Shown here piece by piece: positions 57,868 through 63,597 of a stretch of 64,000 nt of DNA. The stretch spans positions 1-64,000 of the forward strand of contig JAFUZO010000050.1 of the NCBI GenBank assembly GCA_017476575.1. Reading direction: 5' to 3'. The notes below the pieces were generated by a model that saw nothing but the letters and a program-made list of their open reading frames with translations, was not told where the DNA came from and did no database searches. Both the position numbers and the translations under genes were made by a program. Each line of letters opens with the position of its first letter. The stretch's first letter is position 1. The stretch is from Bacteroidales bacterium (lineage in GTDB: Bacteria; Bacteroidota; Bacteroidia; Bacteroidales; UBA932).

Positions 57868-60483
57868 ATGACTGCAAAAGAGATTAGACAGAAGTACCTG
57901 GAATTCTTCGCCTCGAAGGGACACACGATCGTGCCGTCGGCACCGATGGTGGTCAAGAACGACCCGACGCTGATGTTCACCAACGCGGGCATGAATCAGT
58001 TCAAGGATATCTTCCTCGGCAATACCACGCCGAAGTTCCATCGCGCGACAGATTCGCAGAAGTGCCTCAGGGTGAGCGGAAAGCACAACGACCTGGAGGC
58101 TGTGGGCCATGATGGGCGACACCACACGATGTTCGAGATGCTGGGCAACTGGAGCTTTGGCGACTACTTCAAGACCGAGGCCATCGACTGGGCCTGGGAG
58201 CTGCTGACCGAGGTGTACAAGATCGATCCGGCCAAACTCTATGCCACTGTCTTCGAAGGCTCCGGGGACGACGGGACCGAACTGGACACCGAGGCACAGG
58301 CCGCCTGGCTCAAGCATATGAGCGCCGACCATGTCCTCCTGGGCAACAAACACGACAACTTCTGGGAGATGGGCGACACCGGCCCCTGCGGTCCCTGCTC
58401 CGAAATCCATATCGACCTGCGCAGCGACGGGGAGATCGCCGCGAAGCCGGGCCGGGAACTGGTGAACACCGACAACGACGAGGTCATCGAGATCTGGAAC
58501 CTCGTGTTCATGCAGTACAACCGCAAGGCCGACGGCCACCTGGAGCCGCTGCCTGCCAAGAATATCGACACTGGCATGGGCTTCGAACGACTCTGCATGG
58601 TGCTCCAGGGCAAGGATTCCAACTACGAGACCGACGTGTTCAGCGGGCTCATCCACCGGGTGGAGGAACTTTCCGGCCACCGGTACGCCGAGGGCGGACA
58701 GGTGGAAGTAGCCATGCGTGTGGTCGCCGACCATATCCGCGCCATCGCCTTCTCCATCGCCGACGGCCAGCTGCCGTCCAACGTGAAGGCCGGCTACGTC
58801 ATCCGCCGCATCCTGCGCCGGGCCGTCCGCTACGGCTATACCTTCCTCGGCTTCAACGAGCCCTTCCTCACCCGCCTCATCCCGCAGCTCGTGGACGACA
58901 TGGGCGAGGCCTATCCTGAACTGAAGGCCCAGCAGAAGCTCATCGAGAGTGTCATCCGCGAGGAGGAGAATGCCTTCCTCCGCACCCTCGACCGCGGAAT
59001 CCGGATGCTGGAGGACAATATGGCCCGCCATGCCGACACGAAGGTCCTTCCGGGCACCGATGCCTTCGTCCTCTATGACACCTATGGCTTCCCCATCGAC
59101 TTGACGGAGCTGATCGCCACCGAGAAGGGCTATACCGTGGATCTGGAAGGCTTCCAGGCCGAGCTGCAGAAACAGAAGGAACGTGCCCGCGCCGCCACCA
59201 CCAACGAATTCGGCGACTGGATCGAGTTCGCCGCCGGGGAGGAGGTCGAGTTCATCGGCTACGACCGGCTCTCCTACGAGGGCGCGACCCTCCTCAAGCA
59301 GCGCACCGTCAAGCAGAAGAACCGCGAACTCTACCAACTCGTCTTCGACAAGACCCCGTTCTATGCCGAGATGGGCGGCCAGGTCGGGGATACCGGCTTC
59401 ATCGTCGGCGCCTCCGGCGAGAAGATCGCCATCCTCAACACCGTCAAGGAAAACAACCTGACCAACCACCTCGCCGAGCGCCTGCCCGCCGACGGGACGC
59501 AGCCGTTCGACCTCCATGTCGATGCGGACCGCCGCCTCCGGACCATGGCCAACCACACCGCGACCCACCTCGTGGACCAGGCCCTCCGGGAAGTCCTCGG
59601 CACCCATGTCGAGCAGAAGGGCTCCTTCGTGGGGCCGGACTACTTCCGCTTCGACTTCTCGCACTTCGCCAAGGTGACCGACGAGGAGATCGCCCGGGTG
59701 GAAGCCCTGGTCAACGAGCGCATCCGCGCCGACTACCCGCTGGAGGAGAAGCGCGACGCCACGATGGCCGAGGCCCAGGCCATGGGCGCCATCGCCCTGT
59801 TCGGCGAGAAGTACGGCGATGTGGTCCGCGTCGTCAAGTTCGGCGGTTCCGTCGAACTCTGCGGCGGCACCCATGCTGCCTCCACCGGACGCCTCGGCCT
59901 GTTCAAAATCCTGTCCGAGAGCGCCGTCGCAGCCGGTGTCCGCCGGATCGAGTGCGTCACCGGGGCCGCCGCCGAAGCCTATGTCAAGGGATTGGAAGAC
60001 GTCCTGAGGAGCGCCCGCAGCTTCTTCAACAATGTGCCCGACCTGACCGGGGCCATCCGCAAACTGGTCGAGGACAATGCCGAAATCCACAAGAAACTGG
60101 AAGAGGCAGCCGCCGAAAAGGCGACGCAGTTCGCCGAGAGGGTCAGTGCCACGGCCGGGACGGTGAACGGCATCCGGGTCGCCCGGTTCGACCTGTCCGT
60201 CGACCCGGCCCTCGCACGCACCGCCGCCTTGCTCCTGCAGAAGAAGGCCGAGAACCTGGTGGTCGCCGGGGCCTTCGAGTTCGGCGGCAAGCCGAACCTC
60301 ATCCTGATGTACTCCGCCGACCTGGTCGCCAAGGGCAAGAACGCCGGCAAGGACATCCGCGAGGCCGCCCGGCTCATCCAGGGCGGCGGCGGCGGACAGC
60401 CCGGCCTCGCCACCGCCGGGGGCCGCGACGTGGACGCCCTCCCCGCCGCCCTCGACAAACTGGTCGAGCTGGCCACGGCGTAG
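57868..60483 (+). CDS. alaS: Alanyl-tRNA synthetase
   Basis: 871 residues (E. coli 876). Catalytic core with [20 protein letters not shown] and [10 protein letters not shown]. The editing domain has H563 and H567 in NHTATHL and C665/H669 in CGGTHAAS, so zinc-dependent Ser/Gly editing looks intact. The C-terminal DHHA1-like domain is present ([15 protein letters not shown]). A 22-base gap separates it from the LptF/G-Fmt gene. Confidence 0.98.
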
Positions 60484-60505: not shown

Positions 60506-62947
60506 ATGAAGAGACTGGACCGATTCATATTGAAATCGTTCGTAGGACCGTTCGCAGCGATCCTGCTGATTGTCATCTTCATCCTCGTGATGCAGTTCCT
60601 GTGGCTATATATCGATGAACTGGTCGGCAAGGGATTGCAGTTCAAGGTCATCCTCGAATTCCTCATGTGGGGGAGCTGCCAGGTGCTGCCGCTGGCCCTG
60701 CCGCTGGCAACCTTGCTTTCTTCCATGATGACCCTCGGCCAGATGGGCGAGAACTACGAACTTACCGCCATCAAGGCCTCCGGCATCTCCCTCACCCGGA
60801 TCCTCCTGCCCCTGACGGTCGCCAGCGCCGTCATCAGCGTCGGCGCCTTCTTCATCGGCGACCGCCTCGTGCCGTACTCCATCAACCAGATCTACACCAT
60901 GCGTGACGACATCGGGCGCACGAAGTCCGAGATCAAGATTCCTGTCGGCACCTTCTACGACGGCATCGAGGGCTACATCCTCCGGGTCGATGCGCGGGAC
61001 GAGAAGTCCGGCATGATGCACGGGGTGATGGTCTACGACCACTCCGGCAACAAGGGCAACACCCGCCTGACCGTCGCCGACAGCGGCATCATGAAAATGT
61101 CCAAGGCCAAGGACTACCTGACTTTCCAACTCTTCTCCGGCGTCAACTACCAGGAGACCAACACCCGCAAGTACCGCGACACCACCCTCGCCCTCCAGCG
61201 TATCCAGTTCTCCCGCCAGGAGATGATCATCCCCCTGGAGAACTATGCCTTCCACCATTCCGATTCCGCCCGCTATGGAGAACAAGTCAAATCCATGAAC
61301 ATCAAACAGTTGAACCATGGACACGATTCCCTTTCCCTGCTGGCCTCCGACGGCTTGGAGAGGCACATGCGGGACCTTTCGAACAGCAGCGGACTGATGT
61401 ACCGCAGCCAACTCGACACCTCCTGGAAGGCATCCGGCAAGAAGCCTCTCCCGCCGGGCGATCCCTCCTGGAAATCCCTCAAAGACGAGAAGCGGGCCTA
61501 TGAATCCGCCTCCGCCAGCGCCTCGCAGATGGAATCCACCCTCCGCAGCCAGAGCATGGACGCCTACGAATACACCCGGCTCCTCCGCTGGACCAGCGTG
61601 GAAATATGGAAGAAATATGCCCAAGCCCTCGCCTGTTTCATCCTCTTCTTCATCGGAGCCCCCCTCGGCGCCCTCATCAAGAAGGGCGGACTGGGGACCC
61701 CGGCCATCGTGTCCATCCTGTTCTTCGTCCTCTACTGGGTCGTCGACATCACCGGCACCAAACTGGCCCGGGACGGTGCCGTAGGCGCATTCGGAGGCGA
61801 TTTCATCTCCGCCTTCGTGCTGGCCCCCATCGGCGGATTCCTCACCTGGAAGGCCATCCAGGATTCCTCCCTGTTCAACATGGACGGTCTCAAGACCGGA
61901 TGGCGTAAAATCAGAAGCAAAGTCATGTCCTTCTTCAGGAAAACCCGCATCGTCTACATGGGCACGCCCGAATTCGCCGTAGCCCCGCTGGACGCCCTTG
62001 TCAAAGGGAAATACCAAGTCGTCGGCGTCGTGACCGTGGCAGACAAACCCAGCGGCCGCGGCCTCAAGATGAACGAGAGCGCCGTCAAGAAGTACGCCGT
62101 GGAGCATGGCATCCCGGTGCTCCAGCCGGAAAAACTCAAAGACCCGGCCTTCCTCGAAGCGCTCGCCGCATGGAAGGCGGACCTTTTCGTCATCGTCGGC
62201 TTCCGGATGCTGCCGGAAGTAGTCTGGAGCATGCCAAAGATGGGCACGTTCAACCTTCATGCCGCCCTGCTGCCGCAGTACCGCGGCGCCGCCCCGATCA
62301 ACTGGGCAGTCATCAACGGCGAGAACATCACCGGGGTCACCACCTTCATGATCGACCGGCAGATCGACACGGGCGGCATCATCCTGAGGCAGGACTGCCG
62401 CATCGCCCCGACCGATACGGCCGGCGACGTCCATGACCGGCTCATGGGACTCGGCGCCCAGCTGGTCGTCGACACGGTCGAGGGGCTGATCCAGAACAAT
62501 GTCGAGACCCGGGTCCAGCGCAGTTTCATCCAGGGTTCCGAACTCCTCAAGCCCGCCCCGAAGCTCACCCGCGAGCTCCAACACATCGACTGGAACGACA
62601 CGACCCGCAATGTCTACAACCTCATCCGCGGCCTGTCCCCTTTCCCTTGTGCGTTCACCGAGCTGGTACGGGACAGCGGGACTCCGCAACAGCTGAAAAT
62701 CTATTTCGGCGAGATGCGCGACGACCTGCACGCCGATCCGGGCACCGTGCTCTCCGACGGCAAGACCTACCTGGCCGTCGCCACCTCCGACGGTGCCATC
62801 GCCCTCACCGACCTCCAGCTCGCCGGCAAGAAGCGCATGGACGTGAAATCCTTCCTCCTCGGCTTCCGTGAACCAGCCTCCTACACCACCACCCCGGGTA
62901 CTTCTCGGGCTGAAATCGCCAAGACCAAGCCGGAGGAGGACGCATGA
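60506..62947 (+). CDS. LptF/LptG permease fused to methionyl-tRNA formyltransferase
   Basis: 813 residues in one uninterrupted frame. Residues 1-470 are an LptF/LptG (YjgP/Q) permease: three membrane segments at the N-terminus, a periplasmic jelly-roll (about 130-370) and three more segments (about 388-460) ending at SLFNMDGLKTGWRKIRSK; such permeases move LPS to the outer membrane. Residues 474-813 are a full Fmt: RIVYMGTPEFAV (from 482), GFRMLPEVVW, the catalytic Asn583/His585 in NLHAALLPQYRGAAP, and DRQIDTGG. No stop or frameshift lies between them, but an internal ATG at 61925 (MSFFRKTRIVYMG) could start Fmt alone. It overlaps the next gene by ATGA. Confidence 0.85.
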   Translation: MKRLDRFILKSFVGPFAAILLIVIFILVMQFLWLYIDELVGKGLQFKVILEFLMWGSCQVLPLALPLATLLSSMMTLGQMGENYELTAIKASGISLTRILLPLTVASAVISVGAFFIGDRLVPYSINQIYTMRDDIGRTKSEIKIPVGTFYDGIEGYILRVDARDEKSGMMHGVMVYDHSGNKGNTRLTVADSGIMKMSKAKDYLTFQLFSGVNYQETNTRKYRDTTLALQRIQFSRQEMIIPLENYAFHHSDSARYGEQVKSMNIKQLNHGHDSLSLLASDGLERHMRDLSNSSGLMYRSQLDTSWKASGKKPLPPGDPSWKSLKDEKRAYESASASASQMESTLRSQSMDAYEYTRLLRWTSVEIWKKYAQALACFILFFIGAPLGALIKKGGLGTPAIVSILFFVLYWVVDITGTKLARDGAVGAFGGDFISAFVLAPIGGFLTWKAIQDSSLFNMDGLKTGWRKIRSKVMSFFRKTRIVYMGTPEFAVAPLDALVKGKYQVVGVVTVADKPSGRGLKMNESAVKKYAVEHGIPVLQPEKLKDPAFLEALAAWKADLFVIVGFRMLPEVVWSMPKMGTFNLHAALLPQYRGAAPINWAVINGENITGVTTFMIDRQIDTGGIILRQDCRIAPTDTAGDVHDRLMGLGAQLVVDTVEGLIQNNVETRVQRSFIQGSELLKPAPKLTRELQHIDWNDTTRNVYNLIRGLSPFPCAFTELVRDSGTPQQLKIYFGEMRDDLHADPGTVLSDGKTYLAVATSDGAIALTDLQLAGKKRMDVKSFLLGFREPASYTTTPGTSRAEIAKTKPEEDA

Positions 62948-63597
62948 AACATATCGTCATCCTCTGCGACGGGGAGTTTCCCCGGAAGCCGTATCCGTTG
63001 CACCTCCTGGAGACGGCCGATGCCGTGGTGTGTTGCGACGGGGCGGTGCTGAAATACGAACGCTACCTGAAGCGGACGGGCCGGAACGGCCTCCCTGAGG
63101 CGGTTGTGGGCGACATGGACACGCTGCCGCCCTCGCAGCAGAAGCGGTTTGCGTCCCGGATTGTCCACGAGACGGAACAAGACTTCAACGACATGACCAA
63201 GGCGATGCGGTATGTACTTTCCCGCCATCCGGACGTGACGGACATCCATATCCTGGGTGCAAGCGGGCGCCGGGAGGACCATACCGTCGGCAACCTGTCG
63301 CTCCTGATGGAGTACACCCGCCTGTTCGACCTCGGCGGTATCCGCGTGGATCTGGTCTCGGACTACTCGACCGCCTTCGCCGTCACCGACACCTGCGAAC
63401 TGCATGTCGGACAAGGACGGCGCTTCTCGCTTTTCTCGCCGGACAATTCGCTCACCATCCAGTCCGAAGGCCTTGTGTGGCCGACCGACGGCGTCGTCTT
63501 CGACAACTGGTGGAAAGCCACCCTCAACCGGGCTTCCGCCGACATCGTCACCCTCACTTTCTCCCACCCCTCCCTCGCCCTCGTCATTCTCGACTGA
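62944..63597 (+). CDS. thiN: Thiamine pyrophosphokinase
   Basis: Converts thiamine to TPP with ATP. 217 residues: VVCCDGAVLKYE, VVGDMDTLP (56-60), EQDFNDMTKAMRYV (80-88) and GASGRREDHTVGN, the standard TPK motifs, then the C-terminal substrate-binding beta domain. Its product is the cofactor of Dxs and transketolase in this window. Coupled by overlap to the permease-Fmt gene. Confidence 0.93.
   Translation: MKHIVILCDGEFPRKPYPLHLLETADAVVCCDGAVLKYERYLKRTGRNGLPEAVVGDMDTLPPSQQKRFASRIVHETEQDFNDMTKAMRYVLSRHPDVTDIHILGASGRREDHTVGNLSLLMEYTRLFDLGGIRVDLVSDYSTAFAVTDTCELHVGQGRRFSLFSPDNSLTIQSEGLVWPTDGVVFDNWWKATLNRASADIVTLTFSHPSLALVILD

Follow-up and report, generated by a model that had tools for sequence, protein, structure and literature searches.

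Every initiator tRNA is a substrate of methionyl-tRNA formyltransferase (Fmt), an enzyme regarded as soluble; the structure 2fmt_A is that of Escherichia coli Fmt with its tRNA. LptF and LptG, the permeases of the lipopolysaccharide (LPS) exporter LptB2FG (PF03739), have membrane helices around a beta-rich domain of the jellyroll type, and their C-terminus is cytoplasmic. Some bacterial genes, infB and cheA among them, contain an in-frame internal start that gives a shorter second product. The locus described here joins an LptF/LptG permease to Fmt in a single reading frame, a fusion for which we found no published description in the open-access literature.

The window is the whole stretch of DNA that was analysed, 64,000 nucleotides from a Bacteroidales genome that is available as a draft assembly of 82 contigs (96.9% complete). 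Relatives of the fusion come mostly from rumen and gut metagenome assemblies. Those named in GTDB include Candidatus Cryptobacteroides caccocaballi (63% identical) and Ca. C. intestinipullorum (62%), from which we take the window to belong to a Cryptobacteroides-type genome of the Bacteroidales, presumably within GTDB family UBA932, as co-mention of the names in the literature also has it. The open reading frame (ORF) at 60506..62947 (+) runs through 813 codons with zero internal stops (Table 1), and the in-frame LptF/LptG-Fmt fusion that a preliminary description had claimed for it was confirmed by ORF, Pfam and NCBIfam analysis.

Table 1. Features of the fused gene and its surroundings (window positions)
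Feature	Position	Strand	Details
alaS (upstream neighbour)	57868..60483	+	TIGR00344, 889 bits; ends 22 bases before the fusion
Fused lptF/G-fmt CDS	60506..62947	+	813 aa plus stop; conserved in ~140 loci
LptF/LptG permease domain	60521..61849	+	Residues 6-448; Pfam LptF_LptG; LptF-like by NCBIfam scores
Coupling-helix Glu85	60758..60760	+	Sequence counterpart of E. coli LptF E84 (LptB contact); invariant, 52/52
Basic linker	61859..61945	+	Residues 452-480; predicted helix 459-477, low confidence
A-rich, weakly structured stretch before the junction ATG	61905..61924	+	A fraction 0.50, minimum free energy (MFE) -2.5
Candidate internal start ATG (Met474)	61925..61927	+	Start-like context, synonymous skew -0.259; free Fmt would be ~340 aa
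Fmt catalytic domain (Formyl_trans_N)	61946..62476	+	N583, H585, D621, tRNA-loop R518
Fmt C-terminal tRNA-binding domain (Formyl_trans_C)	62561..62866	+	Pfam
Thiamine diphosphokinase (downstream neighbour)	62944..63597	+	TIGR01378, 98.5 bits; ATG overlaps the fusion stop

The permease half matches Pfam LptF_LptG over residues 6-448 with 218.9 bits against a cut-off of 27.9, covering profile positions 1-352 of 353, and in an AlphaFold2 model it forms long helices with a beta-rich domain between them, as in the LptB2FG permeases. It shares with these an invariant coupling-helix glutamate as well; the role of the E. coli coupling-helix glutamates E84 and E88 has been described (PMC5082905). It differs from them in that its C-terminal extension is a whole Fmt, and in scoring below the NCBIfam equivalog cut-offs for both LptF (TIGR04407, 136.7 bits against 230) and LptG (97.6 bits). 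Elsewhere in the same genome are one LptB match above cut-off and a second LptF/LptG permease, on contig C75, which scores 173.5 bits as LptG, short of the cut-off of 240, and 122.8 bits as LptF. Because the fused permease scores higher as LptF and its C75 paralogue higher as LptG, the pair looks complementary.

A complete Fmt spans residues 481-790, with Formyl_trans_N at 481-657 (118.9 bits) and Formyl_trans_C at 686-787 (75.8 bits), and the NCBIfam fmt equivalog TIGR00460 scores 228.3 bits, above its cut-off of 201.5. Conservation of key residues was scored across 52 diverse fused homologues: the catalytic N583, H585 and D621, described earlier as intact, are invariant, and so is the tRNA loop G517-R518-G519 (52/52), which aligns gap-free to 1fmt and whose arginine (E. 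coli R42) recognises initiator tRNA (PMC13234167). Foldseek ranked Fmt structures first, with a TM-score of 0.88 to 2fmt_A. The two domains, the catalytic Asn/His/Asp, the loop arginine and the fold are thus those of Fmt (TIGR00460; E. coli 1FMT/2FMT), but the N-terminus is joined to a membrane permease, where the known enzyme is free and soluble. Could the C-terminal half instead be an ArnA-like sugar or lipid A formyltransferase that acts with the LPS exporter? Fmt and ArnA share a fold, and the partner is an LPS transporter. We consider this highly improbable and rejected it on the model scores and the invariant tRNA loop with its R518, since the ArnA model NF005998 gives 146.3 bits, far under its cut-off of 777, whereas TIGR00460 is passed; the best structures are moreover those of Fmt, and the gene is the only Fmt candidate in a genome that has kept its deformylases.

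That genome, 96.9% complete, yielded no second Formyl_trans_N match; a separate free Fmt encoded elsewhere was looked for and not found, the fused gene being the only copy, and the fused genomes of the family sample likewise have a single Fmt match at E<=1e-30. Two peptide deformylase matches are present. As a separate observation, no purN-like formyltransferase was detected in this genome (G000), while several members of the genus have PurN-like matches; its absence may be an assembly gap. Since the C-terminus of LptF/LptG is cytoplasmic, the fused Fmt would lie on the right side of the membrane, and the earlier claim that the join falls after the last membrane helix with Fmt facing the cytoplasm is supported, its side following from the established topology of these permeases. 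With this topology, and given that Glu85, the catalytic Asn/His/Asp of Fmt and its tRNA-loop arginine are all invariant, both halves look active.

The AlphaFold2 model of the 813-residue protein (mean pLDDT 83.6, pTM 0.49) has each half well folded and a helix of low confidence at 459-477 between them; it leaves the predicted placement of the permease half relative to the Fmt half loose. The spacing from D453 to R481, across the linker, is 27-29 residues in 114 of 114 sequences. For linker codons 452-473, upstream of the junction ATG, dN/dS is 0.13 over 40 independent close pairs within the genus, a sign of purifying selection; Fmt gives 0.08, and values for parts of the permease range over 0.05-0.18. 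This ratio and the narrow range of lengths argue that the full-length protein is a selected product; such constraint is not expected were the frame across the linker untranslated. A post-translational cut within the linker may nevertheless occur.

An uninterrupted fused frame is found in ~33 of 36 genomes of the same genus. The exceptions comprise pieces at contig ends (G004 and G010), a 70% complete genome without the frame (G014) and one in which it is split into two frames (G025). In a family sample of 200 genomes from 26 genera, ~75 genomes in 9 genera (the Cryptobacteroides/UBA932 group) have the full frame, among them all 19 members of the window's genus. No fusion was found outside the family in 393 genomes of the order (206 genera, a few of them within the family) or in 395 genomes of the phylum, in searches whose thresholds a fused homologue should pass and a very divergent one could escape. 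In G050 a frame that had been taken for a fusion turned out to consist of two neighbouring cistrons separated by a stop. The fused frame recurs, well past what chance would give, in ~140 loci of separate assemblies, 46-82% identical. Loss of a stop codon through an error of assembly or sequencing has in its favour the draft state of the assembly and otherwise nothing; the recurrence of the same frame in separate assemblies rules it out, and we regard its probability as negligible. Around 61900-61930, where the preliminary description had thought that relatives might show a stop, the window has none in frame (+). Stop-bearing relatives do exist, but in sister genera, and they reflect evolution, not an assembly error in the window.

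The gene order alaS-lptF-fmt-thiN, with an M23 peptidase gene nearby, is common to the fused and to most of the unfused members of the family. In most unfused members fmt comes next after the permease gene and often overlaps it, for example by ATGA: the fmt core lies -13 to +41 nt from the permease stop, and all three frames relative to the permease occur. In other families lptF and fmt lie ~3.6 kb apart or are unlinked. Because unfused sisters have adjacent or overlapping cistrons in the same cluster, we infer that the fusion arose by stop loss. The lptF/fmt pair is a merged operon pair, not a random joining, a point absent from the preliminary description.

This merger happened more than once. 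In a 74-row tree built from both halves, six genera form one clade whose 30 rows are all fused (SH-aLRT 96), and further fused tips occur in genera g27, g31 and g48 near unfused sisters, giving a minimum of 4 changes. A single clade of all fused rows was rejected by the AU test (p 1.9e-5; without the g48 row, p 2.9e-5). Unfused forms are abundant and branch at the base, so the simplest interpretation is that fusion took place repeatedly, though fission may have occurred in some lineages. The family shows all the steps of gene fusion side by side, from separated through adjacent and overlapping genes to fusions with the old start and fusions without it, and shows them with repeated origins.

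The candidate internal start is the ATG at 61925, which the preliminary description had offered as an alternative source of free Fmt. This in-frame ATG is present and has both a start-like context and a skew in synonymous codons. In 94 of 137 distinct fused sequences an ATG lies no more than 15 codons ahead of the Fmt core; the other 43 have none there, and most fused sequences outside the window's genus are without it. Junction ATGs are preceded by sequence with an A fraction of 0.45 and a mean MFE of -2.2 kcal/mol, close to the values at fmt starts of unfused relatives (0.47 and -1.8) and unlike those at other internal ATGs (0.23 and -8.2). The basic linker is A-rich by its amino-acid content, and codon choice was therefore compared against each ORF's own usage. 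Codons -15 to +4 at the junction shift toward A/T by about -0.22 G+C per codon, comparable to what the gene shows over 15 codons at its own beginning (-0.14 to -0.19), and the skew spans roughly codons -9 to +10 relative to the ATG. Mean synonymous skew is -0.227 for the group with the ATG versus -0.022 for the group without. Corrected for the tree (PGLS), the effect of the ATG is -0.118 (p=0.006, lambda 0.88), and it is weaker at lambda 1 (t -2.0); a coarse independent-pairs test that used thresholds found no significant association of the ATG with skew. Of 730 windows along the ORF studied here, 8 have a skew as strong as that at its junction. GTG and TTG were rejected as alternative internal starts, the sequences that have only these showing no codon skew. 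A start at Met485, inside the motif VYMGTP, was also set aside: this codon is universal, but its surroundings are more structured, and a product begun there would lack the initial beta strand, RIVY.

These codon patterns suggest that many fused species still also make free Fmt from the internal start, and there is good but indirect evidence that the window's species does so from 61925. Tethered fusion and internal start, put forward earlier as alternatives, are there probably true together. Evidence of the same kind, likewise good but indirect, indicates that the internal start has been lost in about one third of fused sequences. All of ATG, GTG and TTG are absent within 15 codons in 21 of 137; of random 16-codon stretches of the same ORFs, 63% contain some start codon. 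Six loci are without a start codon even within 30 codons, including one (L066) that is 80% identical to the window's.

Such losses, together with a linker constrained as protein and a synonymous-diversity test that gave no dip at the junction, would also suit a fusion that is obligate everywhere, with only the full-length protein made, all Fmt tethered and the junction ATG a relic of the old fmt start. We think this unlikely, because the sequences with the ATG keep an A-rich, unstructured context and an A/T skew that those without it lack, and at the synonymous divergence seen here a relic ought to have eroded.

The likely explanation, in our judgement, is a merged operon pair that forms a dual-product gene for tethered and free Fmt, the fusion having become obligate in some lineages. 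In the ancestors, fmt and the gene for an LptF-like permease would have become adjacent or overlapping cistrons between alaS and thiN, after which in-frame loss of the permease stop, more than once, gave one chain of permease, basic linker and complete Fmt. In the LPS exporter the permease half would supply one membrane subunit and the second permease the other, together with LptB. The Fmt half, attached where the last membrane helix ends in the cytoplasm, would formylate Met-tRNAi as the cell's only Fmt. Where the junction ATG is kept, as in the window's species, ribosomes would also start there and make free Fmt; where it has decayed, as in roughly one fused sequence in three, Fmt probably exists in tethered form alone. 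This resembles infB and cheA in having one ORF with two products predicted from two starts. It differs in its products, which would be a membrane-bound fusion and a housekeeping enzyme in free form, and in that the internal start is a former gene start.

For the lineages without the ATG we advance, tentatively and at somewhat less than even chances, that the only Fmt is the cytoplasmic tail of an LPS-export permease, so that formylation would be confined to the inner membrane at the exporter and its amount tied to envelope assembly. A conserved group whose only Fmt is joined to a membrane transporter provides a test of whether Fmt must be free. The fusion physically connects translation initiation with outer-membrane assembly, and it characterises uncultured gut bacteria, Cryptobacteroides and related genera. 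That a functional coupling of initiator-tRNA formylation to envelope growth or membrane translation drove the fusion might be argued from its several origins, from its long retention with no reversion seen in the main clade and from the disappearance of the internal ATG in several lineages. Overlapping cistrons, however, can easily and neutrally lose the stop between them, which explains the recurrence; sister genera are unfused, and we know of no shared substrate or regulation of an LPS-export permease and Fmt; we therefore rate such a driving role as quite improbable. Easy stop loss and a later ratchet explain retention without any functional coupling, and coupling as the reason for retention is possible but unsupported.

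Some unfused members of the family carry a different C-terminal extension on their LptF/LptG permease. These extensions, of 130-170 residues, follow the last membrane segment, where Fmt sits in the fusions, and were seen in unfused permeases from the family and order (L239, L240, L241, L243, L253 and L254). The second LptF/LptG permease gene of the window's genome (L033:1483-3713, on G000 contig C75) overlaps the 3' end of tgt, the gene for tRNA guanosine transglycosylase, so that both LPS-export permeases directly adjoin tRNA-acting enzymes; LptF/LptG beside bacterial tgt has been noted before (PMC11130926).
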